Source: Thiobacillus sp.
GTDB taxonomy: Bacteria; Pseudomonadota; Gammaproteobacteria; Burkholderiales; Thiobacillaceae
DNA length: 33,639 bases
Direction of reading: 5' to 3'
NCBI GenBank assembly: GCA_019459705.1
Contig: JAIBFE010000215.1
Coordinates: 1-33,639 of the forward strand
The translations under genes and the position numbers were made by a program. The notes under the pieces were generated by a model. That model did not search any database, was not told the origin of the DNA, and worked only from the letters and a program-made list of their open reading frames with translations. Shown piece after piece: positions 14,728 to 30,854 of the stretch; the stretch's first letter is position 1; the number at the start of each line of letters is the position of its first letter.

Positions 14728-15765
<1,038 letters not shown>

Positions 15766-15834
15766 ATTTTTACGCGTGGCAAGCCGTTAAAAGGCATATG
15801 CAGGCATATTTTCCAGCGGGGCAGGTGAATCCAG
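15766..15834 (+). promoter_or_regulatory. hemB to acyltransferase gap with a GGCATAT direct repeat
   Basis: A 69-bp spacer. It holds GGCATAT twice (15793-15799 and 15803-15809), one helical turn (10 bp) apart, with GCATATGC as a palindrome between them. This could be a protein-binding site for control of the acyltransferase operon. No sigma-54 motif with correct spacing and no good terminator were found. Confidence 0.3.
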
Positions 15835-16614
15835 GTGACAAGCAATATTAGCAAGTTGATCGGGCGTGGCCAGAACAAAGCTGATGATTTCGATCGAACC
15901 ATCATCAGCTTTGAGTCGCCCTATCGACTCAAGGACTTAAGCCCGTCGCTCGGTGGGGATCCTGACGTTCACGAAGAGAAAGTGAGTGAAAAGGTTTTCA
16001 AGTTGCGTTTTGCGCAGCAGGACGAGGTATTCAACAGCGCCAGCTTGCTGGTGCAGAAGCGCTATGAATGGCGTGGCATGCCGAAGGCGCAACTGGCAAA
16101 GCATCCCAATCGCATCACGATTCTAACTTTCCACCAAGAGAAGATCGTCGGTACTGTTACGGTTGGCTACGATTCGGAAGAAGGATTGCTGGCCGACGAA
16201 ATGTTCAAGCCTGAAGTTGATGCCTTGCGCGCCCAAGGCAAGCGTATCGGCGAACTCAGCAAGCTCGCCATTGACGAAAATATCGGCTCCAAACAATTGC
16301 TGGCGAGCCTGATTCATGTCGCCTATTTATATGGCGTCATCCACAAATGCACAGACGCCATTTTTGACATCGTTCCCCATCACAAAGCCTTCTACGAGAA
16401 AATGCTGGGCCTTGTCCAGATCGGGGAGGAAGTAATGAGTAAGCGGGTGCATGTCCCGGTGATGCTGATGCATCTGGATCTGGAATACATGCGTCAAAAG
16501 ATAGAAGAGTTCGGTGGCAAAGGTAAAACGGTTAAAGAACGCAGCCTTTATCCTTATTTTTTCTCTCCTAAGGATCAGGAAGGGATACTGGCCCGGCTAT
16601 TGCGAGAGGAATGA
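15835..16614 (+). CDS. FeeM-like N-acyl amino acid synthase / PEP-CTERM-exosortase-associated acyltransferase
   Basis: 259 residues from GTG 15835. I assign it to the GNAT-fold family that includes N-acyl amino acid synthase FeeM and the exosortase-associated acyltransferases. The core is recognisable in LLVQKRYEWRGMP, RITILTFHQEKIVGTVTVG, GKRIGELSKLAID and FDIVPHHKAFYEKMLGL. Family members load a fatty acyl group from acyl-ACP onto an amino acid or similar amine. Here the substrate is unknown. It is first of a three-gene operon, its stop overlapping the ThiF-like start (ATGA). A PEP-CTERM gene lies just beyond the operon. The N-terminal ~50 residues are polar and not recognised. Confidence 0.78.
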   Translation: MTSNISKLIGRGQNKADDFDRTIISFESPYRLKDLSPSLGGDPDVHEEKVSEKVFKLRFAQQDEVFNSASLLVQKRYEWRGMPKAQLAKHPNRITILTFHQEKIVGTVTVGYDSEEGLLADEMFKPEVDALRAQGKRIGELSKLAIDENIGSKQLLASLIHVAYLYGVIHKCTDAIFDIVPHHKAFYEKMLGLVQIGEEVMSKRVHVPVMLMHLDLEYMRQKIEEFGGKGKTVKERSLYPYFFSPKDQEGILARLLREE

Positions 16615-17489
16615 TGTTGGCAGCGGCATTTGATTACCACGAGGCGTTTTCCCGCAACCTTGGCTGGCTGACGCCGGATGAGCAAAATACGCTGCGCGGC
16701 AAAAGGGTCGCCATTGCGGGGATGGGTGGCGCAGGCGGCGTGCACCTGCTGGCGTTGACCCGGCTTGGGGTGGGGAAATTTCATGTGGCGGATCTTGACC
16801 AGTTCAACCTGGTCAACTTCAACCGCCAGGCTGGCGCCACTATGAAAAGCTTGGGCCGGGACAAGGTGGCCGTCATGGCGGAACAGGCGTTGGATATCAA
16901 CCCGGAACTGGATATCCGTACCTTCCCCGAGGGGGTGCAGCCGCACAACGTCGATGCTTTTCTGGACGGCGTAGACCTCTATGTGGACGGTCTGGATTAC
17001 TTTGTTTTTTCCGCTCGCCGATTGGTATACGACGCATGTCGTGCGCGAGGCATCCCCATCACCTTTGCTGTTCCTCTTGGCATGGGCGCTGCGCTGCTTA
17101 ACTTCCTGCCGGGTGGGCCGAGTTTTGAGGAATATTTCCGCCTCGAGGATGGCCCTGAGGAGGAATGGCCCGTTCGTTTTTTAGTGGGTATTGCGCCTGC
17201 CTTGCTGCATCGGGGCTATCTCGTCTATCCGGAAATCGTCGATTTTCAAACCCAGCGGGTGCCATCCACCGGCTTGGCCTGTCAGCTATGCGCCGGAATG
17301 GCGGGAACGGAAGCGATGAAGCTGTTGCTGGGGCGCGGTAAAGTGGCTGCTGTTCCCCGCACCCTGCAATTCGATGCCTACACCGGGAAGCTCAAACAAA
17401 CCTGGCGGCCGGGGGGGAATCGCCATCCCTTGCAACGTCTGTCCATGGCCTATGTGAAATGGCGTCTGCAACGGGCGCGGCAGGAGTAA
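16611..17489 (+). CDS. ThiF/MoeB/E1-like adenylyltransferase family protein
   Basis: 292 residues. Rossmann nucleotide loop GMGGAGG (37-43), the acidic-Arg block DLDQFNLVNFNRQ (61-73) with the arginine finger, Lys85 in GRDKV, and VDGLDY (125-130) are all E1-like. Only one CxxC (CQLC, 224-227) is seen, so the four-Cys zinc site of MoeB/ThiF looks incomplete. No ubiquitin-like or ThiS-like partner is nearby. It may therefore adenylate a small-molecule or protein carboxylate, possibly the product of the acyltransferase encoded just upstream (inference). It overlaps the previous gene by 4 nt and is followed by the nitroreductase-like gene after 3 nt. Confidence 0.85.
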   Translation: MMLAAAFDYHEAFSRNLGWLTPDEQNTLRGKRVAIAGMGGAGGVHLLALTRLGVGKFHVADLDQFNLVNFNRQAGATMKSLGRDKVAVMAEQALDINPELDIRTFPEGVQPHNVDAFLDGVDLYVDGLDYFVFSARRLVYDACRARGIPITFAVPLGMGAALLNFLPGGPSFEEYFRLEDGPEEEWPVRFLVGIAPALLHRGYLVYPEIVDFQTQRVPSTGLACQLCAGMAGTEAMKLLLGRGKVAAVPRTLQFDAYTGKLKQTWRPGGNRHPLQRLSMAYVKWRLQRARQE

Positions 17490-17492
17490 GCA

Positions 17493-18560
17493 GTGGACGC
17501 GGTATTGCGGGACATTCTGGAACTGGCCCGCTGGGCGCCTTCTGCGGACAACACGCAACCCTGGCGTTTCCAGGTGCTGGGCGAGCGAGAGCTGGTTTTA
17601 TGGTATGCCCCCGGCCCGGATTTGAGTGTCTTCAACCTGGATCATTTTGCCGGCTGTTTGGCCATGGGCGCCTTGCTGGAAACCCTGGCCGTGGCCGCTA
17701 CGGTGCACGGTCTGATAGTCGCCGACACACGCACTGAGCCCGCTTTCCACAATTATCCGTGGGGTATTCACGTGGTATTGCGCGCTGAAGTCGGGCTGGC
17801 GCCTTCCCCTCTCGTGCCCGTTGTTTCCCGCCGCACCACTCAACGCCGTCGGATGTCTCTTGTTTCCCTGTCCGCCGCGCAAAAGCAGGCCTTGGAGGCC
17901 AGTGTCGGAAAACTTTACAGAATCCTGTGGCTTGAGGACTGGGCAAGCAAGTTGAAGATGGCCTCTTTATTGAACCGGGTCGGCAAAGTCAGGTTGCTGA
18001 TGCCGGAAACCTTCGCCGTGCACCGGGATACGATTGCCTGGGGCGCGCAACATAGCGACGACCGCATCCCTTCCGGGGCGATCGGCGCGGACCCCCTGCT
18101 GCAACGCATCATGGCGTGGACCATGAAGTCCCAGGCACGCGTTCGCATGCTTAACCGCATGGGCGGTCATTTGTTGCCCAGAGTGGAAATGGATTTATTG
18201 CCCGCTTTGGCCTGTGCCGGGCATTTTCTCGTCTGGAGCGAGCGGCCCCTGGACGACCCTGCCGCCCAAATGGAGGCAGGGCGTGCCCTGCAGCGTTTCT
18301 GGCTAACGGCTGAGAGCCTTGGCTTGCAGTTTCAGCCGGAAATGGTTGCCCCGCTTTTTTGTCGCTATATCAGGACAGATCGACTTTTTACACGTGATGC
18401 ATGGGCGGCGACCGAGATGGCGGTGCTATGCAAGCGGTTTTCGCAATGGATGGGCGCCCAGCCATGGGCGCAAGCCGCGTTCATGGGACGTCTGGGGCGA
18501 AGCCAGCCGGTTGTTAGCCGGTCATTCAGACAGCCATTGAACGCTTTGCTGATTCCCTGA
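17493..18560 (+). CDS. nitroreductase-family protein
   Basis: 355 residues from GTG 17493; GGAG just upstream overlaps the end of the ThiF-like gene. The N-terminal ILELARWAPSADNTQPWRF is the FMN-binding entry motif of nitroreductases. The rest is longer and more divergent than classical NfsB-type enzymes, with a middle region rich in Met/Arg and a C-terminal half LQRFWLTAESLGLQFQPEM that fits the fold. It probably catalyses an FMN-dependent oxidation or reduction on the operon's product. As I recall, ThiF and nitroreductase domains also occur fused in other bacteria; this should be checked. No signal peptide. Confidence 0.8.
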   Translation: MDAVLRDILELARWAPSADNTQPWRFQVLGERELVLWYAPGPDLSVFNLDHFAGCLAMGALLETLAVAATVHGLIVADTRTEPAFHNYPWGIHVVLRAEVGLAPSPLVPVVSRRTTQRRRMSLVSLSAAQKQALEASVGKLYRILWLEDWASKLKMASLLNRVGKVRLLMPETFAVHRDTIAWGAQHSDDRIPSGAIGADPLLQRIMAWTMKSQARVRMLNRMGGHLLPRVEMDLLPALACAGHFLVWSERPLDDPAAQMEAGRALQRFWLTAESLGLQFQPEMVAPLFCRYIRTDRLFTRDAWAATEMAVLCKRFSQWMGAQPWAQAAFMGRLGRSQPVVSRSFRQPLNALLIP

Positions 18561-18666
18561 ATGTGTCGGTGGACTTTACACTTCGGCCTTCACGCGCTGG
18601 AAACGTGCAGGCTGCCAACAAGAAAATTCCTTTAAAAACAAACTATAACTCATGTTCTCCTGGAGG

Positions 18667-18682
18667 TGGCACAGTCGGTGCT
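18667..18682 (+). promoter_or_regulatory. sigma-54 (-24/-12) promoter of the PEP-CTERM gene
   Basis: TGGCACA-GTCG-GTGCT matches the consensus TGGCACG-N4-TTGCW except for two bases, with the GG and GC dinucleotides exactly 12 bp apart. A start site near 18692 would leave a leader of about 50 nt. PrsR, encoded in this window, is a sigma-54 activator and the likely partner. Confidence 0.82.
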
Positions 18683-18744
18683 TTGTTAGGGGCATGACAG
18701 CCATCTTGGCGTCAATGTCTAACCTCTACTCAAGGAGAGTAACG

Positions 18745-19647
18745 ATGATTAAGAAAACAGCAGTGGCCCTTGCGCTGATGGCTGGCTTTGCGGGCAGCGC
18801 CCACGCCGGGATTGATTTCACCTTCAATTACGCGTTGGCCAACGCCGTCGAAGGCTATACGCCGCCGGCTGTAACGGTCCCTGGCTACAACAGCTACGAT
18901 AGCGCCCTGTCGAAAGTAACGGACGAGATGAAGTTCACGGCGGAATCCTTGGTTAGTTTTAACGGGGGCGTTCCTTTCCAGTCGGGCTCCACGTTCACGG
19001 ATTACGTCATTGTGCGCATTGACCAGCTGTTCAATGACGGCAACAACAATTTTGACGTCTATAACCTCGGTAGCGACCGTCAGGTAACGGTGGCAATTGT
19101 GATGGACGGGTTGTTCGTCAGCAATCAGAACTATGTCTTCACTTCGCTCAGCCGGTTCGACGTCTATTATGATGCGGGCGACAATGCAGCGGGTGGCGCT
19201 GTCTACACTGCAGCCAATTTTAACGGCCCCCTTGGCAACTTCGTCGACGGCACGCTGGCTGAAACTGGCTCCAATCTGTCAGGCGGTGGTGTGACCGGCG
19301 TCACGGTGACTGATGGCGCGCTCAACCTGAGTGTGCTGTTGACCGATCAGCTGGCGAACGGCGATTTTGAAGTGGGCCCGACGGGTCAGCTGTTTACCAA
19401 GCTGGTGAGCGCCTTGGTGAACGGCAATAACGCCCTTTGTACCGACGACGGCGGCACCCAACAGGCTTGCGGTACGACGGAGGCCGGTTTGGCTGCATTC
19501 TTTGGCACGTCGGCTGGTGCGACCGTGTTCCACACTCGGACGGATGGCTCGCTGTCCAAAGCCGTGCCTGAACCCCAAACCCTCGCGCTCATGGGCTTGG
19601 GCCTGCTGGGGATGGGTTTCGCTGCACGCAGCCGCAAAGCCAAATAA
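18745..19647 (+). CDS. PEP-CTERM sorting domain-containing secreted protein
   Basis: 300 residues from ATG 18745, with AAGGAG eight bases upstream; the track's start at 18652 would bury the sigma-54 promoter and the ribosome site. Signal peptide MIKKTAVALALMAGFAGSAHA. The body is Asn/Asp/Gly-rich and predicted beta-rich, with one cysteine pair (CTDDGGTQQAC). The C-terminus is a standard PEP-CTERM signal: VPEPQTLALMGLGLL, hydrophobic stretch, then RSRKAK. Exosortase (XrtA/EpsH, not in this window) should recognise it and release the protein to the surface or matrix. The specific function is not recognised. It has its own promoter and terminator, so it is a single-gene unit. Confidence 0.93.
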   Translation: MIKKTAVALALMAGFAGSAHAGIDFTFNYALANAVEGYTPPAVTVPGYNSYDSALSKVTDEMKFTAESLVSFNGGVPFQSGSTFTDYVIVRIDQLFNDGNNNFDVYNLGSDRQVTVAIVMDGLFVSNQNYVFTSLSRFDVYYDAGDNAAGGAVYTAANFNGPLGNFVDGTLAETGSNLSGGGVTGVTVTDGALNLSVLLTDQLANGDFEVGPTGQLFTKLVSALVNGNNALCTDDGGTQQACGTTEAGLAAFFGTSAGATVFHTRTDGSLSKAVPEPQTLALMGLGLLGMGFAARSRKAK

Positions 19648-19666
19648 GGTCATCCAGCTTCTCCTG

Positions 19667-19693
19667 AAACCCCGGCGAGTCCGGGGTTTTTTT
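19667..19693 (+). terminator. intrinsic terminator of the PEP-CTERM gene
   Basis: AAACCCCGG, loop CGAGT, CCGGGGTTT with seven T in all, 20 nt after the stop codon. Confidence 0.95.
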
Positions 19694-20303
19694 ATGGCTG
19701 CGGGCGGGACGTTACTGATGGCATAAAGTGCTCCTTGCCCTACCATGAAGCCAAATTTCTCGGGGGCGCCCATGTTGCCGAACTATTCCTGGTCGGCGCT
19801 ACATGGGCGGCCCGCTTTCTTGAACGCATGGGTTTCGCCGATGTCAGCAGGTATGACTAACCACCCGCGATCCCGGCTGCCTCTACATGCCTGGGGGGTA
19901 TGGCATAAGAACGCGGATCTCGGGCTTCGGCCCAGCAGGTTGCCTTGTTGAGGGAATCGGGTTGGACGCGGTGAATCGTCCGCTTGCTACGGGTTGCCCG
20001 AGCTGATCCCGGTGCAAGCCGCGACGGGTCTTTGGGATTTGATCGCAGCGGCGAAAGATAGCGCCCCCAGCATCTTCATGTTTTTAAGGCTATTTTTGCC
20101 AGGGGCCGTGCTTGGCGATCTATCCGAAGCGCTCGCCTTTCCGTTCAGCCGACTTTCTACTGGAGCTTGAGTTGGGGGGGGGGCGGCCGAGCATCGACGG
20201 TCGGAGCCAGCCCTTGGTGAGCCTCTTTGATCCTTGGTCACGCTCGGAAAGCTGATGGGTGCGGCCTTGTTGCCGTACTAATCAAGAACACTCGCACCTT
20301 TCA
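19694..20303. other. ~600-bp gap without a convincing gene; possible decayed coding remnants
   Basis: No ORF here has a start, ribosome site and family resemblance together. Two plus-strand stretches look protein-like. About 19718-19859 ends KFLGGAHVAELFLVG...ERMGFADVSRYD-stop with no start codon. About 19965-20171 contains LPELIPVQAATGLWDLIAAA and stops at TGA. They are in different frames and I recognise neither. They could be debris of a gene lost between the PEP-CTERM gene and the prs operon. A run of ten G is at 20174-20183. ORFs of the track here (19745, 19987) are not supported. Confidence 0.3.
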
Positions 20304-20336
20304 ACAAAAAGCGGCCTTCCTTACGGATGCCGCTTT
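20304..20336 (-). terminator. terminator downstream of the prs/prsT operon
   Basis: On the minus strand AAAGCGGC, 13-nt loop, GCCGCTTT continuing TTG. It lies about 60 nt beyond the stop of the last prsT gene. The stem also has T-rich sequence on the plus side, so it may work in both directions. Confidence 0.65.
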
Positions 20337-20396
20337 ACCTTTTCCGCTATCTTGCGTGCCTTGGCCCTCAGTTAAGGGGGGCCACGCCTGGCACCC

Positions 20397-23171
20397 TTAA
20401 CGTAGCCCCGCCTCAATATTCCGGGCTTTGTCGCCCAGCGGCCCCTTGAGCCTGATCAGCGGAGCGAGCTGTTGTCGCGCCTGGGAGCGGGCATTTTGTT
20501 TGGCTAGGGCTTGGGCATAGTGCAGTCGGTAGACCGGAACCTGGGGAGCCAGTTCGACGGCCTTGGATAGCAATGAAGTGCCCCTTTTCAAATCACGTCC
20601 GCTGGTAGTCAGCAGCCAGCCGAGCGTGTCCAGGATATTGGCCTGCAAAGGGGCCAATTGGTAGGCTTTCTCTGCGTATTGCTGTGCCTGGTCGGGCGCG
20701 CGGTCTTGCACAATGAAAGCCAGGTTGTTAAGGGCCTGGAGTTGATCGGGATTGATTTTCAGCACCTCCCTATAGTCCGCCTCGGCTTTGGGTAAATCCA
20801 TGCGGGACAGGCGCAGATCGGCCCGGGCTAAGCGCACTCGCACATCTTCAGGATGTTGCTCGATCCATTTGTCGAGCAAACCGTCGGCTTGGGCTAAAGC
20901 ACCATTATGGGAAACGGCCCGGTGCAGCTTGACCAGGGTCTGGCTGTCCGGTGCCAGGGTTTGAGCCCGACGGTAGGCGTCAGCGGCCTGTGACCAGTTT
21001 TTTGCAGCCAGATGAATATCGCCTTCCAGTATCTGGGCCTCGGTCTGGGTGGGGAATTGGCCCTGTGCCTGCTTGGCGATCTTCAGGGCATCGCTAATGC
21101 GGCCCTCGCGCATGTGAAGCAATACCAGACTGCTGTAGGCGGGATAGAACTGGGGCGCCTGGTTGAGCAATTTTTCCAGGTGCGAGCGCGAGGCCTTGAA
21201 ATTGCTCAGACCGAATTCGGCCTGAGCCAAGCCATGGCTCCATTGAGGGGTTTGCGGAGACAGTTTCTGTGCGCGCTGGAAGCTAATGCGGGCGCTTTCG
21301 GAATCGCCCAGGGCGAGTTGAGCTTCGCCCATGAGGCCTAGCAAACCGGCGTGTTTGGGATGGGTCTGCTGGGCACTCTTGAGGGTGGCCAGGGCCTTGT
21401 CCGGCTCGCCTCCTTGCAACTGTTGACTCGCCACCCTGAGCACCAACGCGGCAGAATCGGGCGCGGCCTTTTGGGCGCGGGCAAGCCACTGGTTGGCTTC
21501 CTTGGGGTTGCCGGCCTGAAGGGCGATGTCGGACAAGGCCAGCATCGCTTCAATATTGTCAGGGTTGCGTTCGAGTACGTCTTTCCACAGGGCTTGCGCC
21601 TGGCTGGGTTGCTTGTCCTTGAGATAGAGGTGGGCTAGCGCGCGCACGGCAGGCAACGAGCCGGGCTGGAGTTTGAGCGCGAGTTGCAGATGCTCACGGG
21701 CTTTGGCGACCTGGTTGAGGTTGCTGTGGGCTTCGGCTGCCAGCAGATGGGCTTGGGGCAGTTTGGGATCTTTGCGGATCAGGTTGTCGGCGCTGGTCAG
21801 GGCCTCTCTATATTGCCGCGCTTTGAGCTGGGTCAGGATGATGAGGATGTCGGCCTCCCGCCCGCCCGTTTTGCCGGCGGCCTCCTGGAACAGCGCCAGA
21901 GCTTCCTGGGTCTGTCCTTGGCGGGCCTCGGATTGGCCCAGGCTGGTTAGCAGCTGGGCGCTGCCGGGTTTGAGGCTTAAGGCCTGGCGGTACAGATTCT
22001 CCGCCTCGACCCAGCGACCACGTGACATTTCTGCATCTCCGGCCAGCTTGAGGGCGAAAACGTCGGGCGGGTTCTGTCGTAGCAAGGGGGCCAGCAGTTC
22101 CAGGGCTTCATCCGGGTTGCCCTGGCGCATAACGGTGACGGCCCTGAGCTTGCGGGCAAAAATGTGGCCCGGCAAGACCGCGAGTACCTGAGAGAAAGCC
22201 TTGCCCGCTTGCTCCAGCGATCCGAGGTCAAGCTGGATTGTGCCAAGGAGCAATTGATACCCGGGCAATTCCGGACGGACTTTGACAGCCTGTTGAATAA
22301 GCGGGAGTGCCTGTGCAGGCTGTTTCTGCAAGTAGAGAGAAAACGCCTTGAGATAGGCCGCATCAGGATGGCCGGGGGCGATTTTTTCGATTTTGTCGAT
22401 CTGTTTTTGGGTGTTCTTGAAATCGCCTTCGGAGAGATGGGCCAGGCCTAACTGGCCAAGTGAGCCGATATCTTTGGGTGCAATTTGCAGGGCTTTTTCA
22501 AAGCCGCTGATGGCTTCTTTCAGTTTACCTTCGTTGAACAGCTGCTGGGCAATCAGGCGCAGGGTCCTGGCGTTTTGGGGCTCTATGGCGAGGGCCTGGT
22601 CAAGCCAGTCTTTGGATTTCTGGCTGTCGCCAGTGACTTTGGCACAGGCGGCCAGGCCCCAGTAGGCGGGGATGTTTTTAGGGTTAGTCGTCCTGGACTG
22701 GGCGTAGAGCTCACAGCCGGCTTGCAGTTTGCCCAAGCCGATCAGGGCATCCCCTCGGGCGCTTTCCAGACGGGCGCGGTTGAGACTGGAAAATTGCGGG
22801 GGCGGCAGAATTTCATCCAGAACCCGCTGGTATTGCTTTTGCTCCAGCAGGCTTTCTGCAAGCAGGGGAAGAACGGATTCAGCGCCGACCCCCAGACCCT
22901 GGGCGCGCTTGAGCTCTCTCTCCGCATCTTCAGCATAACCGGATTTGAGATAAGCCTCGGCCAGCAGCAAGTGGGTGCCGGGGTTGTCCGGCGCTTTTTG
23001 GTCCGCGTTCTTGAGTTCGATCAGGCTGGTCTTGTAATCGGATTGGCCCATCGCATCCTTGGCCCGCTGGATGTGCTCCTCGGCAGTCAGGCTGGAGGTG
23101 CGGTCGCAGGCGCTGATCCCGAAAGCCAGGACCAGGGACAGCACGACAGGGGTAAGTTTGGTTCTGGGCAT
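20397..23171 (-). CDS. prsT: PrsT-type TPR-repeat lipoprotein (XrtA/PEP-CTERM system), second tandem copy
   Basis: 924 residues. Lipoprotein signal MPRTKLTPVVLSLVLAFGISAC with lipid Cys22, then TPR repeats throughout (e.g. HLLLAEAYLKSGYAEDAEREL, ALNNLAFIVQDRAPDQAQQYAEKA). Members of this family accompany PrsK/PrsR and exosortase A clusters and probably act as periplasmic or outer-membrane scaffolds for polysaccharide or protein export. It starts 9 nt after the preceding prsT copy, with AAAGGA overlapping that stop. It appears clearly diverged from the upstream copy and somewhat less GC-rich, so it is probably an old duplicate or acquired paralog. It remains intact, whereas its neighbour is frameshifted. 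Confidence 0.9.
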   Translation of the reverse strand: MPRTKLTPVVLSLVLAFGISACDRTSSLTAEEHIQRAKDAMGQSDYKTSLIELKNADQKAPDNPGTHLLLAEAYLKSGYAEDAERELKRAQGLGVGAESVLPLLAESLLEQKQYQRVLDEILPPPQFSSLNRARLESARGDALIGLGKLQAGCELYAQSRTTNPKNIPAYWGLAACAKVTGDSQKSKDWLDQALAIEPQNARTLRLIAQQLFNEGKLKEAISGFEKALQIAPKDIGSLGQLGLAHLSEGDFKNTQKQIDKIEKIAPGHPDAAYLKAFSLYLQKQPAQALPLIQQAVKVRPELPGYQLLLGTIQLDLGSLEQAGKAFSQVLAVLPGHIFARKLRAVTVMRQGNPDEALELLAPLLRQNPPDVFALKLAGDAEMSRGRWVEAENLYRQALSLKPGSAQLLTSLGQSEARQGQTQEALALFQEAAGKTGGREADILIILTQLKARQYREALTSADNLIRKDPKLPQAHLLAAEAHSNLNQVAKAREHLQLALKLQPGSLPAVRALAHLYLKDKQPSQAQALWKDVLERNPDNIEAMLALSDIALQAGNPKEANQWLARAQKAAPDSAALVLRVASQQLQGGEPDKALATLKSAQQTHPKHAGLLGLMGEAQLALGDSESARISFQRAQKLSPQTPQWSHGLAQAEFGLSNFKASRSHLEKLLNQAPQFYPAYSSLVLLHMREGRISDALKIAKQAQGQFPTQTEAQILEGDIHLAAKNWSQAADAYRRAQTLAPDSQTLVKLHRAVSHNGALAQADGLLDKWIEQHPEDVRVRLARADLRLSRMDLPKAEADYREVLKINPDQLQALNNLAFIVQDRAPDQAQQYAEKAYQLAPLQANILDTLGWLLTTSGRDLKRGTSLLSKAVELAPQVPVYRLHYAQALAKQNARSQARQQLAPLIRLKGPLGDKARNIEAGLR

Positions 23172-23180
23172 GGCAATCCT

Positions 23181-23861
23181 TTAGCGTGAGGAGAGTTGCT
23201 GATAGAGCTGTCGGGCCTGAGCTTGGGCAGGGAAGACGATTTCACGGTCCAGCAGGGTCTTGAGTTCCTGTCTGGCACGCATCGTGTCACCTGCCAGATA
23301 CAGTCCATAGGCCAGATGCCAGTGGATTTCAGCGGCATCCGGCGCCTTGGATAGCGCTTGCTGCAGAAGCTTGAGGCCGCGTTCAGGCTGCCCCTGCCGA
23401 ACCAGGATCCAGCCCAGGGTGTCCATCACGGCAGGATTGTCGGGTTTGAGCTTGAGCGCCTGCTCGGCAAATGCAAGCGCGCGGCTGTCCTTGGATTCGA
23501 AGAGAGACCACGCAAGGTTATTCAGGACAAGAAGGTTGTTTGGGTTGCTCTTGTTCAATATCAAATAATGTTCAACCGCGGCTTGATGCTGCTTGCGCTT
23601 GATCAGACTTTCGGCCAGCGCTGCGCGGGTGTTGGCGTCTTGCGGGTGGCTGGCCAGCCAGCTGGCGAGGCGCTTTTCGCCTTCTTCTGTACGCTGGGTG
23701 GCATTGAAAACCTGCAGCTGGCGGATGAGCCATGCACCGGAAGGCGCCAGTTTCTGTGCGCGTTCGAAGGCGGCGAGTGCGGCGGAGTAGTCCTTGCGCG
23801 CAAAGGCAGCGTCGCCTTCGAGGATGAAGCCGGCCGGGCTGCCGGGTTTTTGCTGCTGCAC
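23181..23861 (-). CDS. prsT: PrsT C-terminal fragment (second half of frameshifted prsT)
   Basis: 226 residues of TPR protein with no lipoprotein signal of its own and no ribosome site before its GTG. The frame is open upstream to about 23898, where it joins the 689-aa ORF after a 1-nt shift. The joined sequence (VEIQ-ARFDEALKLARQ...FILEGDAAFA) aligns with ISDALKIAKQ...QILEGDIHLA of the neighbouring PrsT. It is best read as the C-terminus of that gene, not an independent gene. Confidence 0.85.
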   Translation of the reverse strand: MQQQKPGSPAGFILEGDAAFARKDYSAALAAFERAQKLAPSGAWLIRQLQVFNATQRTEEGEKRLASWLASHPQDANTRAALAESLIKRKQHQAAVEHYLILNKSNPNNLLVLNNLAWSLFESKDSRALAFAEQALKLKPDNPAVMDTLGWILVRQGQPERGLKLLQQALSKAPDAAEIHWHLAYGLYLAGDTMRARQELKTLLDREIVFPAQAQARQLYQQLSSR

Positions 23862-23886
23862 CTGTCGGGCGAGCTTGAGTGCCTCG

Positions 23887-25956
23887 TCAAAGCGTGCCCT
23901 GAATCTCGACGCCGCCGAGCATCAGTTGCGCATCGAGGAAATCGGGCTGGATGCTCAGGGCATCCTGCAGGGTTTTGCGTGCGCCGGCCATATCCTTGGC
24001 GGCGATCTGCGCGGTGGCGACCTTGGCCAGCGGCGCGGCCTGGCGGGGCAGGCGTTCGGCCAGCTTGCGGTAGCTGCCCAACGCGTTGGTGGTGTCTCCC
24101 AGCGCCAGCTGGATGGTGCCGAGAAGATCGAGTGCGGCTGGGTTATCGGGCTGCGCATTGACCGCTTCGCGCGCGGTGGCGAGCGCCTTGTTCTTGTCGC
24201 CCCTTGCGAGTTGATGGCGCGCCAGTGCCACCCGCGGCTGCAGTGCCTGCGGATGTGCGGCGGCGGCCTTCTCCAGCCAGCTTGCATAGACTTTTTCATC
24301 CTTGTTGCGCAGCCCCAGGTCGGCTAGCGCGAGCATGGCGCTGAGATGCTTGGGATCGGCCTTGAGGATGCTTTCGAAGCGTTGGCGTGCAGCCTCGGGT
24401 CGATTGTCTTTCAGGTCGAGTTGCGCCAGATTGGCTGCCGCAGGAAAAAACGCGGGGTCGAGCTTGAGTGCCTGGTTGAAGCTGTCACGTCCTCGGGCGA
24501 CGTCCTGTTTGCCAAGATAGGCCGCGCCCCGGTAGTTCCAGACGATCGGATCAGCGGGCTGTTTCTTTTCCAACGCGGCAATGCTGGCCAGCGCAGCGTC
24601 GAACTGTTTCTTTTTCAGCTGATTGAGAATGATGAAGGTGTCGGCGCGACTGTTGGCGCCTTCCATCGCAGCGGCGGTCTGCAGGTCGGCCATGGCACGG
24701 TTGTCGCCCTGGGCCAGTCGGGATATGCCGAGCTCGGTGCGAATGGCTGCGCTGTCGGGGCTGCGCTGTGCGGCCTGCTCGAAATAGGCCGAAGCCTGGG
24801 AAAAGTTCTTTTTGGCGAGGGCGATTTCACCGGCGACGACCAGCATACCGGCGTCCTGGCTGGCCGACTTGAGCGCCGGCGCCAGCGTGCGTGCCGCGTC
24901 GTCCGGGCGTCCCAGCCGCAGCTGCGAGGCGGCCAGCAGACGCAGTGCATAGAGATTGCCCGGCGTGGCCTTGACCACCTTGTTGAGATGCGCTTCCGCG
25001 GTCTGCAGGTTGCCGAGCGCGTATTCTATCGAGCCGCCCAACAGCAGTGCAGGGACGTAATCAGGTGCCGTCTTCAGTACCGAAGCAAGGCGATCGCGTG
25101 CGCGTTCGGTTTTCTTCTCGCGGAAATCGATCAGCGCCTGGGTATAGCGCGCCTGCAGGCTGTTGGGGGTGATTTTCAGGGCGGCCTCGACTTCCTCGCG
25201 CGCCAGGTCCAGCTTGTTTTCGGAAATGGCGATACCCGCCAGTGCGAGCCGCGTGCTGCTATGACGCGGATCGATTTTCAGCACGTCGCGATAGACTGCG
25301 GCGGCTTCCGCCGGCTTGCCCGCAGTGCGCAACAGGTCGCCTTTAAGCAATAGGCTGTCACGGTGTTTGGGGTCGATGCGCAAGGCCTGGTCGAGATCCT
25401 TCATGGCCTTGCCGGCGTCGCCGTCGGCAAGGGCCAGTTGCGCCATCGCGAGATGGATTTCGGCATTGGCGGGCGCAATCGCCAGCGCGCCTTGCAGCAT
25501 CTTGCGCGCGTCCTCCTTGCGCCCCAGTCCGAGCTCGGCGGTGGCGCGCAGGGCTTGCAGGGTGGCGGCATCGGCGTCACCGGCGGCCGGTACGGGCAGT
25601 TCGTCCAGTACACGCTGGTATTCGCGCTGCCCCAGCAAGGCCCGGGCGATCATCGGCTTGACGGTGGCGGCGGGAAAACCGGCTTCACGGGCCCGCCGGA
25701 ACTCTTTTTCCGCGCTGGCCAGATCGAGTTGCTCGAGATACAGCTTGCCCAGTTCAAAGCGTGCTTCGGCGTTGTCTTCGTCACCCGCCACGGCGTTCTT
25801 CAGCTGAATCATCGCCGCCTTGTGATCCCCCGCCGTGATCTTCGCCCGGGCATCGGCCACCAGCGAAGCTGGCTCTTCTCCGCTGCAGGCGGTCAGCAGG
25901 CTGGCGCCGAGAATCAGGGCCGGAAGTAGCCGGCGCGCGGGGACGGGAATAGACAT
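23887..25956 (-). CDS. prsT: PrsT-type TPR-repeat lipoprotein, N-terminal 689 residues (frameshifted gene)
   Basis: Lipoprotein signal MSIPVPARRLLPALILGASLLTAC (lipid Cys24), then a long series of TPR units such as ARFELGKLYLEQLDLASAEKEF and LLKGDLLRTAGKPAEAAAVY. The frame ends early at VEIQGTL-stop. Removing one G from the GGG at 23897-23899 continues into ARFDEALKLARQ and restores a 924-residue protein, exactly the length of the downstream PrsT. GGAGG sits five bases before the ATG. It is the first gene after prsR, with a possible promoter in the 47-bp gap. Either a recent inactivation, a sequencing error or recoding. Confidence 0.88.
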   Translation of the reverse strand: MSIPVPARRLLPALILGASLLTACSGEEPASLVADARAKITAGDHKAAMIQLKNAVAGDEDNAEARFELGKLYLEQLDLASAEKEFRRAREAGFPAATVKPMIARALLGQREYQRVLDELPVPAAGDADAATLQALRATAELGLGRKEDARKMLQGALAIAPANAEIHLAMAQLALADGDAGKAMKDLDQALRIDPKHRDSLLLKGDLLRTAGKPAEAAAVYRDVLKIDPRHSSTRLALAGIAISENKLDLAREEVEAALKITPNSLQARYTQALIDFREKKTERARDRLASVLKTAPDYVPALLLGGSIEYALGNLQTAEAHLNKVVKATPGNLYALRLLAASQLRLGRPDDAARTLAPALKSASQDAGMLVVAGEIALAKKNFSQASAYFEQAAQRSPDSAAIRTELGISRLAQGDNRAMADLQTAAAMEGANSRADTFIILNQLKKKQFDAALASIAALEKKQPADPIVWNYRGAAYLGKQDVARGRDSFNQALKLDPAFFPAAANLAQLDLKDNRPEAARQRFESILKADPKHLSAMLALADLGLRNKDEKVYASWLEKAAAAHPQALQPRVALARHQLARGDKNKALATAREAVNAQPDNPAALDLLGTIQLALGDTTNALGSYRKLAERLPRQAAPLAKVATAQIAAKDMAGARKTLQDALSIQPDFLDAQLMLGGVEIQGTL
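23897..23899 (-). other. frameshift site in prsT
   Basis: Coding strand ATT-CAG-GGC-ACG-CTT-TGA. With GG instead of GGG it reads ATT-CAG-GCA-CGC-TTT-GAC, which continues the TPR protein. Confidence 0.85.
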
Positions 25957-25980
25957 GGGAGCCTCCGAAGTGACCGTGTA

Positions 25981-25986
25981 ATTATA
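25981..25986 (-). promoter_or_regulatory. candidate -10 box before prsT
   Basis: Perfect TATAAT on the minus strand, about 25 nt before the prsT ATG, in the prsR-prsT gap. The region 17 bp upstream (AAATAA) is a poor -35, so strength is uncertain. It would let prsT be transcribed apart from prsK-prsR. Confidence 0.45.
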
Positions 25987-26003
25987 AAAAGTATGGGTGA
26001 GGC

Positions 26004-27352
<1,349 letters not shown>

Positions 27353-27356
<4 letters not shown>

Positions 27357-29437
27357 GCGGCGTCTCCTCCAGCATATGCATTATTGTCCAACGGCAGGCT
27401 GAGGCGGAAGCGGGTGCCGCGGCCCGGCGTGCTGTCCACCTCGATATTTCCATTCAGGGCGCGCAGCGTTTCGCGACATTCATACGCGCCGATGCCCATG
27501 CCCGCCCCCTTGGTGGAATCAAACGGCTGAAACAGTCGGGTGCGGATGAATTCGTCGTCCATGCCGTTGCCGGTGTCGATGATTTCAATGATCGCCAGCC
27601 CGGCTTCCTCGAATGCGCGCACAGTGACATGGCCATTCTGGGGGGTGGCCTCCAGCGCATTTTGCAGCAAATGGCCGATGGCGCGGGTGAGGCGTTCACG
27701 TTCGGCGCGAACGCGGAGGGCTGCGGGCGGCAATTCCAGCACGGGACGCAGCTTGTATGCCTGCTTGCTGGCGGCGGCATCATTCAGGATATCAGCCAGC
27801 TCGACCGACTGTGCCTGCGCCTCGCCGCTGCCCCGGCGCAATTGCGCCAGCACCTTGTTCATGCGGGCAACCGCGTTTTCCACGGTGTCCAGCATGTCGG
27901 CCTGAAACTCGGGGTTGTGCTTGTGTTTTTCGGCATTGGCCAGCAGCAGCGACAGCTGGGCAATGAGATTTTTCAGATCGTGGATGATGAACGTGGTGGT
28001 GCGGTTGAACGACTCGAACTGACGCGCCACGATGAGCTGGTTGGATGCGCGCATTTGCGCCAGGTGTGCCGCGGCCTGACGTGCTGCCACCTTGAGCAGG
28101 TCACTGACTTCCCAGTTGAAGCTGACGTTGCCGAGCGAATGCTTGAGAACCACAAAGCCGAGCAGTTCGTCGTGCAGCATCAGTGGCACCACCAGCCAGG
28201 CGTCGTCGGCACGCTGAATCCACGCCGGCGTATCGAGATCGCCGTACAGATCGCGACGGGTTTTCATTTCGTCCAGGTCCACCACCCACTGCTTGCTGGC
28301 GAGCCACTGGATGAAAGGCGAATCGGCCGGCTCAGTGCCCTGTATATCGGCCCAATTCCAGTGGCTGGCGCGTTGATAGCCGGCGTTGTCTTCACGCATC
28401 CACAGCGCGCCGCCCGGACTTTCGAGCAGCTTGGCCAGTGCCTCGACCGCGCGTTCGCACAACTGCTCGCCGGGCTGGCCCTCGGTGAGGGTGCGGGTGA
28501 AATTGAGCCATTCTTCGCGGTAGTCGTAGCGGTAGCTGAAAAAATGCTTGGAGAGAAACACCCGCAGCCGCGCGCGCAGAGTGCCAGAAAACATCAGCAG
28601 CACCAGCAGCATGGCGGCGGCGAAGATGAACACGGTCTGTACCACGTCGCCCCACTCGCCGCCGAACAGGCGCAGGTAATAGCCGGCGCCGGCCATCAGC
28701 AGCAGGTAAATGCCCGCACCGAGCAGGCTGGCGGTGTGGAAAGCCATGCTGCGTGACAGCCCGACCGGTGCTGCCCACTCCGGATTGCGTGCGGCGGAAA
28801 CCGCGATCAGTGGCGTCACCAAGGCCGCCACATAGCCGCGCGCCGCCCACACCCGAGCGTCCATTGCGTTGAACAGTGCGGCATTGGCGTAGAGATAGAA
28901 GTCGTATATGAACAGTCCGCCCAGCCCGAGGCAGAGAAACTTGATTGCCCAGCGGTCTTCCGGACGGGTGCTGCGGTAGACCTGCTCGACCAGTACCAGG
29001 CCCATGACAGTGAGCAGAACCAGCCCCAGATTCCCGGCCCATCGCGCCAGCACCGGTTGGGTGGGAGCGATGAAGGGCATGACGCTGGCAAGCAGCAGAC
29101 CGATCACAAGCACGCTGGCCAGGGTACGGATAAGGTGCAGGGGTGCCGGCAGGCTTGCACCTGGCGGCAGCCGCAGCCGCAGGATATAAAGTAGCAGTGC
29201 CAGCCATGCACCGTTGCGCACGACTTCGGCGGCGAGTTCCAGCCGTGGCGGCAGCATCCCCCAGGCGGCCAGTGCCGACATTCCCCCCCAGGCCGCGCTG
29301 AGTCCGGTGGCGAGCATCAGCAGACGACCCTGCGGACGTTGCCGCCAACTGGCGATGATGAGTCCGGACAGCCCCAGATAGGTCAGCGCCGCCAGGCCAT
29401 AACCGACGGCAGCGAGGAGGAGCAGGGTGTCGGGCAT
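27353..29437 (-). CDS. prsK: XrtA/PEP-CTERM system histidine kinase PrsK
   Basis: 694 residues. The N-terminal half is a multi-pass membrane sensor of about eight segments (LLLAAVGYGLAALTYLGLSG at the start). A GAF-like domain follows (about 310-460), then the phospho-acceptor helix with His486 in FIIHDLKNLIAQL, and an ATPase domain with N-box NALEATPQ and G-box GNGMDDEFI and GAGMGIGAY. It autophosphorylates and passes phosphate to PrsR. What it senses is unknown. It begins 22 nt after the sugar transferase gene, in the same operon. Confidence 0.95.
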
Positions 29438-29459
29438 GGTCGGTTTCAGGCGTGCGCGT

Positions 29460-30854
29460 TCAGCGTACGCCCTTTCCCCACAACACGACTTGTGCGGTCT
29501 GGAACAGGATCATGAGATCGAGAAACAGGCTGTGATTCTTGACGTAATAAAGATCGTATTGCAGCTTGTGCATGGCGTCGTCGTCGGTTGCGCCATACGC
29601 GTAGCGTACCTGTGCCCAACCGGTGATGCCGGGTTTGACGGTGTGACGTACCCCGTAATAGGGAATTTTCTGGGTCAGGTCCTGCACGAAATAGGGGCGC
29701 TCGGGGCGCGGGCCGACGAAGCTCATGTCGCCGAAAAACACGTTGAATATCTGCGGCAGCTCGTCGATGCGGGTGCGCCGGATGAAACGCCCGGTGAGCG
29801 TCACGCGGCTGTCGTTCTGTCCGGCCCAGCGCGGCTTGCCGTCTTTTTCGGCATCGACGCACATGCTGCGGAACTTGAGGATGGTGAAATTGCGGCAGCC
29901 CTGGCCTACGCGCTCCTGGCGGTACAGCACCGGGCCGGGACTTTCCAGCTTGATCAGCAGCGCGGCCAGCGCCATGATCGGCAGGCAGACCACCAGCATG
30001 GCCGCGCTGACCAGCAGGTCGAACAGGCGTTTGACGGTGTCGCGCACGATCCCCTGGTGGAAGCCTTCGGCCAGGATCATCCAGCTGGCGTTCATCGAAT
30101 CCAGCTGCAAATGGCCGTTCTCGCGCTCGAAGAAGCTTGACAGTTCCAGGACCCGGATGCCGTACAGCTTGCATTTCAGCAGTTCCTGCACCGGCATGCC
30201 GCCGCCCCGGCGGTCACGCACGGCGAGGATGATCTCGCTGATTTGCAGACGCAGCGCCAGTTCGGGCAGGGATTCCTGGGTGTCGAGAATGCGCGCATGG
30301 TCGACGAAATGATGACTGCCGCCCATCGGCAGGTAACCGACCACCTGGGTATTGCTGGCGTGGCCGCGCTTGGTCAGCAGCGCCTCGACGTGGGCGGCGC
30401 GGCTGCCGGTGCCGATCACCAGGGCGCGGGTCTTGAGTGCGCCCGCCCGCGCCCAGCGGATGAATAGCGCACGGCTGAGCAGGATGCCCAGCAGCGCCAG
30501 GCCGAATGACAACAGGAAAGCCCCGCGCCCGACCAGCAGGGGGGGGAAGAAATAAAACAACAGGCTCATCGTCACCAGGCCCAAACCGAAGCTCAGGCCG
30601 AGACGCTGCAGCAGGGTGCGAACGCCGCCCTGCCATTCCAGGTCGTAGAGACCGCTCGCGGTCATCAGTCCCAGCATGACGATGGCGAAGGTCAGGGCCT
30701 TGGGCAGCAGGGGATTGAGATCGTCCGGAATCACGCCGCCGTCGAAGAAGCGCGCGCTGACACCCGCGTAGATGGCGCCACCGAGAATCAGCGACTCGAT
30801 CAGCACCAGCAGCAATAAATTCAGGGGCACGTAGTGCCGGAAAAATCGGATCAC
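29460..30854 (-). CDS. epsB: PEP-CTERM system-associated sugar transferase (EpsB-type, undecaprenyl-phosphate)
   Basis: 464 residues from GTG 30854. Four N-terminal membrane segments (LLLLVLIESLILGGAIYAG, etc.), a Rossmann-like middle (ALVIGTGSRAAHVEAL), and the bacterial sugar-transferase domain (KRLFDLLVSAAMLVV, FTILKFRSM, IDELPQIFNVFFGDMSFVGPRP, KPGITGWAQVRY). It should load the first sugar phosphate onto undecaprenyl phosphate to start exopolysaccharide synthesis. First gene of the operon with prsK-prsR. A five-codon reading frame (ATGAGTAAACGGCCGTGA) overlaps the GTG start and may couple translation. A run of eight C lies in the coding strand near 30540. Confidence 0.93.
   Translation of the reverse strand: MIRFFRHYVPLNLLLLVLIESLILGGAIYAGVSARFFDGGVIPDDLNPLLPKALTFAIVMLGLMTASGLYDLEWQGGVRTLLQRLGLSFGLGLVTMSLLFYFFPPLLVGRGAFLLSFGLALLGILLSRALFIRWARAGALKTRALVIGTGSRAAHVEALLTKRGHASNTQVVGYLPMGGSHHFVDHARILDTQESLPELALRLQISEIILAVRDRRGGGMPVQELLKCKLYGIRVLELSSFFERENGHLQLDSMNASWMILAEGFHQGIVRDTVKRLFDLLVSAAMLVVCLPIMALAALLIKLESPGPVLYRQERVGQGCRNFTILKFRSMCVDAEKDGKPRWAGQNDSRVTLTGRFIRRTRIDELPQIFNVFFGDMSFVGPRPERPYFVQDLTQKIPYYGVRHTVKPGITGWAQVRYAYGATDDDAMHKLQYDLYYVKNHSLFLDLMILFQTAQVVLWGKGVR

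Follow-up and report, generated by a model that had tools for sequence, protein, structure and literature searches.

The window considered here, i.e. the whole stretch of DNA that was analysed, is a contig of 33,639 nucleotides (nt) from a Thiobacillus sp. (JAIBFE010000215.1, assembly GCA_019459705.1), and our subject is an operon of three genes located on it:

15835..16614, + strand: FeeM-type N-acyl amino acid synthase (predicted step 1); GTG start, 259 amino acids (aa); PF21926, E = 1.1e-42
16611..17489, + strand: ThiF-like ATP-dependent carboxylate adenylating enzyme, putative oxazolone cyclase (predicted step 2); ATG start, 292 aa; PF00899, E = 4.1e-42
17493..18560, + strand: nitroreductase-fold flavin-dependent oxidase of the Acg/TrzS C-terminal type (predicted step 3); GTG start, 355 aa; PF00881, E = 3.6e-10

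The feeM and thiF genes overlap by 4 nt (ATGA), the gap between thiF and the oxidase gene is 3 nt, and all three genes are on the + strand. Open reading frames (ORFs) and family profiles confirm in this respect an earlier note on this DNA, which had described three co-directional genes so spaced, with a PEP-CTERM neighbour. In our reading, to which we give a probability of roughly 0.78, the operon specifies a pathway to acyl-oxazolones (azlactones) resembling Oxz, Tyz and Trz, which would be used alongside the XrtA exosortase/PEP-CTERM/exopolysaccharide (EPS) system.

The FeeM protein, which is also matched by the solved FeeM structure 2g0b (E = 2.9e-7), is the single match to its family in the source genome. 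At two of its positions, D178 and L193, its relatives have E (50 out of 52) and F (51 out of 52), respectively. The ThiF protein reaches 457.8 bits against NCBIfam PRK08223 (NF006077), for which the cut-off is 266, and genomes of Thiobacillus and other Hydrogenophilales stand closest by this protein. The third protein scores 101 bits with the Acg/Rv3131 subfamily model NF047509, i.e. under the model cut-off of 199, and 95.5 bits with the Rv1355c (= TrzS) family NF005901, the latter alignment running over positions 375-717 of the profile (its C-terminal half) and covering the whole protein; invariant residues are seen across 17 of its relatives. By its match to the Rv1355c profile and its location 3 nt from thiF, it is an oxidase of the FDO-A type, as in the Oxz/Tyz/Trz pathways. 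The structure model obtained for the oxidase is poor (predicted local distance difference test, pLDDT, 47.6; shallow alignment); that of the ThiF protein is good in the N-terminal half alone (mean 53.8; shallow alignment), and Foldseek leads from it to the generic E1 fold only.

Comparison of the ThiF protein with E. coli MoeB, taken as the reference, and with 49 relatives revealed that all residues examined for ATP binding and adenylation are kept and nearly invariant in the relatives: R15, the GxGGxGG loop G37-G43, D61, D63, N69, R72, Q73, K85 and D129. The equivalents of MoeB R14, D62, D64, N70, R73, Q74, K86 and D130 are all present in the window protein and, judged by these positions, its ATP site is intact, as in the Oxz/Tyz/Trz cyclases; in TrzS, an Asp-to-Ala change in the ThiF site (D217) abolished cyclisation (PMC12856293). 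No cysteine of the window protein stands at the positions of the zinc cysteines (MoeB C172, C175, C244 and C247) or of the catalytic cysteine (C187), and the CQLC motif at 224-227 is in a different place from the MoeB zinc cysteines and varies across the family. The whole family, and not just the window protein, lacks the zinc and sulfur-carrier cysteines. Loss of these cysteines together with retention of the ATP site fits adenylation followed by an intramolecular attack, which would explain why no carrier protein accompanies the operon. At two Thiobacillus loci (L005 and L008, around 7990), no ATG, GTG or TTG codon is found close to where the thiF frame should begin; the candidate start there is a CTG overlapping the feeM stop codon.

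By analogy with characterised relatives, from which the amino acid and the chain length are inferred as well, the FeeM-type enzyme would transfer an acyl group, from acyl carrier protein or coenzyme A, to the amino nitrogen of an amino acid that is most likely aromatic. The ThiF-like enzyme would then use ATP to adenylate the free carboxylate, and attack of the amide oxygen on the acyl-AMP would close a five-membered oxazolone, a reaction for which neither a sulfur-carrier protein nor zinc or a cysteine forming a thioester is needed. The flavin oxidase, with O2, would finally introduce a 2,3-double bond to give a conjugated acyl-dehydro-oxazolone; alternatively, hydrolysis may end the pathway at an N-acyl dehydroamino acid. 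The earlier note had foreseen an N-acyl amino acid with its carboxylate activated and then cyclised or reduced. Acylation, activation, ring closure and dehydrogenation are well supported, but reduction is less likely, because the characterised relatives are O2-dependent oxidases (desaturases). Nor does the zinc site, thought to be incomplete and to argue for an unusual substrate, keep that meaning: the MoeB alignment leaves no zinc site whatever, and this is normal for this cyclase family. An azole-peptide pathway was rejected as well, the small-molecule precedent being the better fit and the substrate being supplied by the N-acyl synthase.

That the three genes form one pathway is confirmed by domain fusions, the strongest evidence we have. 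The NCBIfam family PRK14852 (989 residues) consists of FeeM, ThiF and oxidase regions, PRK14851 and the Rv1355c/TrzS family consist of ThiF and oxidase regions, and the separate proteins of the window match all of them piecewise. A single 989-aa protein with all three domains is encoded on plasmid pDVUL01 of Nitratidesulfovibrio vulgaris (L074, 7062-10031), about 700 bases from downstream PEP-CTERM genes and near XrtA EPS genes, and a ThiF-oxidase fusion was found in eight Burkholderiales loci among those read. Co-occurrence of the genes, which agrees with the fusions, was studied in a sample of 200 Burkholderiales genomes, where a ThiF carrier is a genome with a member of the family over the cut-off and a FeeM match is one of at least 90 bits: ThiF is present in 35 genomes, FeeM in 37, and both in 32 (P=2e-28). 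FeeM is located at most 1.2 kb from thiF, or fused to it, in 33 of 49 loci, and at most 10 kb away in 40. On a Rhodococcus plasmid (L075, 3846-6729), an IS256 transposase separates a distant ThiF relative from a nearby GNAT N-acyltransferase, and no oxidase is listed there.

The tie to the exosortase system is of a statistical and positional nature. With a match of at least 100 bits taken as an exosortase, 33 of the 35 ThiF carriers possess one, vs 40 of the 165 non-carriers (P=4e-15). To reduce the effect of kinship, carrier labels were permuted inside the 16 mixed families, and the observed count (25 out of 26) still exceeded the expected 16.6 (P=7e-7). A phylum-wide sample, having a few genomes in common with the first one, gave 7 of 8 carriers vs 43 of 291 others. 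At the level of the locus, a PEP-CTERM gene is found at most 3 kb from thiF in 34 of the 49 loci, and several families repeat the arrangement hemB - module - PEP-CTERM gene - prsT. This is the phylogenetic and positional coupling of a component of the PEP-CTERM/exosortase system. In another gammaproteobacterial family (L142, L143 and L144, i.e. 3 of 4 members), thiF stands beside PEP-CTERM and TPR genes, and neither FeeM nor an oxidase was detected within about 8 kb of thiF. From another study, we know that a Methylomonas sp. LW13 mutant in a PEP-CTERM-associated N-acyl amino acid synthase fails to form a polysaccharide band (PMC11072679). Our literature search, de Rond 2021 and Craig 2011 being outside its scope, retrieved no article tying the oxazolone pathway to exosortase; a single paper contains both terms, each of them one time. 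Conservation of the neighbours and co-occurrence with exosortase loci across species, both suggested beforehand as checks, were thus found. The idea that the three enzymes act together holds in the sense of one pathway, though relatives lacking the oxidase show that the third gene is no obligate partner. As to a product destined for the exopolysaccharide/PEP-CTERM surface, the genomic link to the system is there, and from the genome context we infer that the product may serve this surface as a lipid, modifier or signal.

Upstream of the operon is hemB, with feeM closely behind it. Downstream, the window contains:

18667..18682, + strand: TGGCACAGTCGGTGCT, a probable promoter of the sigma-54 type for the PEP-CTERM gene; the window's only 1-mismatch site
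18745..19647, + strand: PEP-CTERM protein (PepA-like), probable exosortase substrate, a neighbour outside the pathway; PF07589, E = 1.3e-7; floc_PepA 68.8 bits, under the cut-off of 80
20397..30854, - strand: prsT, a second prsT in two frames, prsR, prsK and a TIGR03013 glycosyltransferase (XrtA/PEP-CTERM context); TIGR02917, TIGR02915, TIGR02916 and TIGR03013 over cut-off

The likely start of the PEP-CTERM gene is the ATG at 18745, behind AAGGAG, and not 18652. The genes that follow it belong to the XrtA system and include epsB, and the XrtA exosortase/EPS locus of the source genome is on another contig (C6). The second prsT (23181-25956, - strand) is split into ORFs of 689 and 226 aa, the Thiobacillus relatives having one ORF of about 925-935 aa; this is a frameshift or an assembly error. 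The site at 18667-18682 resembles the mapped RpoN1 promoter of pepA (PMC9850573), and sites of the sigma-54 type precede most relatives' PEP-CTERM genes; the total number of window sites with up to 2 mismatches is at chance level. No sigma-54 promoter was found before feeM in the window or in the Thiobacillus loci, but feeM is preceded by an evident site in 6 other loci, among them that of the D. vulgaris megaplasmid fusion gene, where a sigma-54-like site is 63 bases before the start. Scans of 15500-20500 for sigma-70 promoters and terminators gave nothing above chance.

Several observations count against an acyl-oxazolone pathway working with the exosortase system. Two of the 35 carriers (G013 and G135) are exosortase-negative, G135 having prsR, prsT and a PEP-CTERM gene, and so is one carrier (G321) of the phylum sample. 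No product is known from this organism or from any exosortase-linked member, and the probable kinship to TyzB, TyzC and OxzB is drawn from NCBIfam profiles only. In the Massilia, Thalassotalea and Stieleria producers no oxazolone was seen, only open N-acyl dehydrotyrosines (PMC12479983); the pathway may therefore not stop at the ring. Finally, ten close relatives have FeeM and ThiF without an enzyme for step 3.

The pattern of oxidase absence is the least explained of our observations. Searches with single sequences and with profiles found no full relative of the third gene genome-wide in 9 of 11 related Thiobacillus-type genomes, one of them from the isolate T. thioparus DSM 505 (L008), and none in G167, a 99% complete genome of the window's genus; these genomes keep FeeM-ThiF. 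The set without oxidase thus comprises L002, L003, L005-L010, L012 and G167; one of these contigs ends inside thiF, where FeeM is not observable. Since several of the relatives are incomplete assemblies, single absences are soft, but the pattern across ten is not. In these genomes thiF is only about 100-600 bases from the PEP-CTERM gene. Four more distant ThiF carriers are also without an oxidase relative, and the ThiF tree, a quick one with several weak forks, requires at least 7 changes in oxidase presence. Genomes lacking the oxidase would be expected to yield either an azlactone, saturated and reactive, or an N-acyl amino acid.

These absences suggest that the core in this family is acylation and cyclisation. 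One could go further and suppose that this holds for exosortase bacteria in general, where a saturated azlactone or N-acyl-aminoacyl adenylate might acylate a surface component or act as a signal read by PrsK/PrsR, the window's oxidised oxazolone pathway being one elaboration; we put this forward tentatively, as an idea of rather low likelihood. A related possibility is that the module makes an activated acyl donor, i.e. an N-acyl-aminoacyl adenylate or a saturated azlactone acylating an exosortase/EPS target (sugar, PEP-CTERM protein or lipid), with the oxidase as an add-on. The genomes keeping FeeM and ThiF without oxidase, the repeated changes on the tree and the three genomes of the other gammaproteobacterial family speak for it, as does the saturated cyclic compound that TrzS alone accumulates when O2 is limited (PMC12856293). 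However, the window retains an intact, translationally coupled oxidase, the oxidase is adjacent or fused in most other Burkholderiales carriers, and no acceptor or transferase was identified, so that we regard an acyl donor as unlikely.

Another possibility is secondary metabolism apart from exosortase, in which the trio would make an antibiotic or surfactant of the N-acyl dehydroamino acid class and would be found beside prs genes by shared ancestry. The clusters for stieleriacine, thalassotalic acid and kyonggic acid use the same genes (PMC12479983), and the Tyz and Trz pathways function in mycobacteria. But an association that persists within families and phylum-wide, a gene order repeated in several families and the sigma-54 sites before some feeM genes make this reading improbable.

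A housekeeping MoeB/ThiF/TcdA function of the ThiF protein, with unrelated neighbours, is in effect refuted by co-occurrence and by the fusions, and linkage and fusions persist from family to family. In its favour, the E1 fold is common to both, and among solved proteins TcdA, ThiF and MoeB come closest in sequence and fold. The protein scores only about 46-85 bits with the MoeB/ThiF/TcdA equivalogs (55.7 bits vs a cut-off of 304 for TcdA, the ct6A synthase), almost every genome has housekeeping relatives as separate matches with much lower scores, and on the ThiF tree the family is apart from E. coli MoeB, ThiF and TcdA, though branches are long; the grouping with housekeeping clades that had been named as grounds for abandoning a single pathway is therefore not seen. 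Membership among the sulfur-carrier adenylyltransferases MoeB/ThiF is ruled out by the missing zinc and catalytic cysteines. Anti-phage E1-E2 systems were also considered and rejected: the similarity is weak and confined to the E1 domain, and neither FeeM nor the oxidase has a match there.

If the operon is an exosortase-coupled acyl-oxazolone pathway, it bears on what these lipids are for, their physiological role having been called 'a major unresolved question' by the oxazolone authors (PMC12856293). The statistical, positional and fusion-level tie to the exosortase/PEP-CTERM system hints at a purpose and gives this question a testable setting in environmental bacteria, the exosortase system gains a candidate small molecule, and the relatives without oxidase, for which a different product is predicted, are a natural control.

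The view that no described pathway has this composition did not survive comparison with the literature: oxzAB, tyzABC, trzAS and the Massilia, Thalassotalea and Stieleria trios have been described (PMC10404671, PMC12856293, PMC12479983), and the chemistry is close to what the earlier note had guessed. De Rond et al. 2021 (cited in PMC10404671) showed that acyl-oxazolones are formed by OxzA and OxzB in Pseudoalteromonas rubra; as far as the citing papers tell, the enzymes are, as in the window, an N-acyltransferase with ThiF and oxidase, and the products are acyl-tyrazolones and phenazolones, but OxzB is fused whereas the window genes are separate. TrzA (Rv1356c) acylates tryptophan, and TrzS (Rv1355c), in which ThiF and oxidase are fused, uses ATP for cyclisation and O2 for desaturation to an acyl-tryptazolone (Kleetz et al. 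2025, PMC12856293); the window ThiF protein and oxidase match the Rv1355c profile NF005901 in the corresponding halves, but they are products of two genes, and the ThiF protein is closer to PRK08223/14851/14852 than to Rv1355c. In contrast, TyzA, TyzB and TyzC of M. tuberculosis (Rv2336, Rv2338c and Rv2337c), which make acyl-tyrazolones, are like the window proteins a separate FeeM/AHL-synthase-like N-acyltransferase, ThiF-like cyclase and single-domain flavin oxidase (Grigg et al. 2023, PMC10404671), and the subcluster to which TyzC is assigned, FDO-A23, has members from Betaproteobacteria and from Hydrogenophilalia, where Thiobacillus is placed (PMC10404671). Unlike in the window, tyzA is on the strand opposite to tyzBC, in a context of mmpL9 and cysteine genes without exosortase. 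Going by its title and by citing papers, the work of Craig, Cherry and Brady (2011) concerns N-acyl amino acid synthases linked to exosortase. The NCBI model exosort_acyl (TIGR03694) represents a family different from the window FeeM, and the source genome has no match to this model over the cut-off. The same three separate genes with the same tight spacing (gaps below 10 bp or overlaps) form the NasY-ThiF-nitroreductase operons of the betaproteobacterium Massilia kyonggiensis and of Thalassotalea sp. PP2-459, whose products are N-acyl dehydrotyrosines and for which exosortase is unmentioned (Sauer et al. 2025, PMC12479983). What the present locus and its relatives add to this known chemistry is that thiF goes together with exosortase and mostly lies next to PEP-CTERM genes, and that the oxidase is absent genome-wide from ten close relatives keeping FeeM and ThiF.

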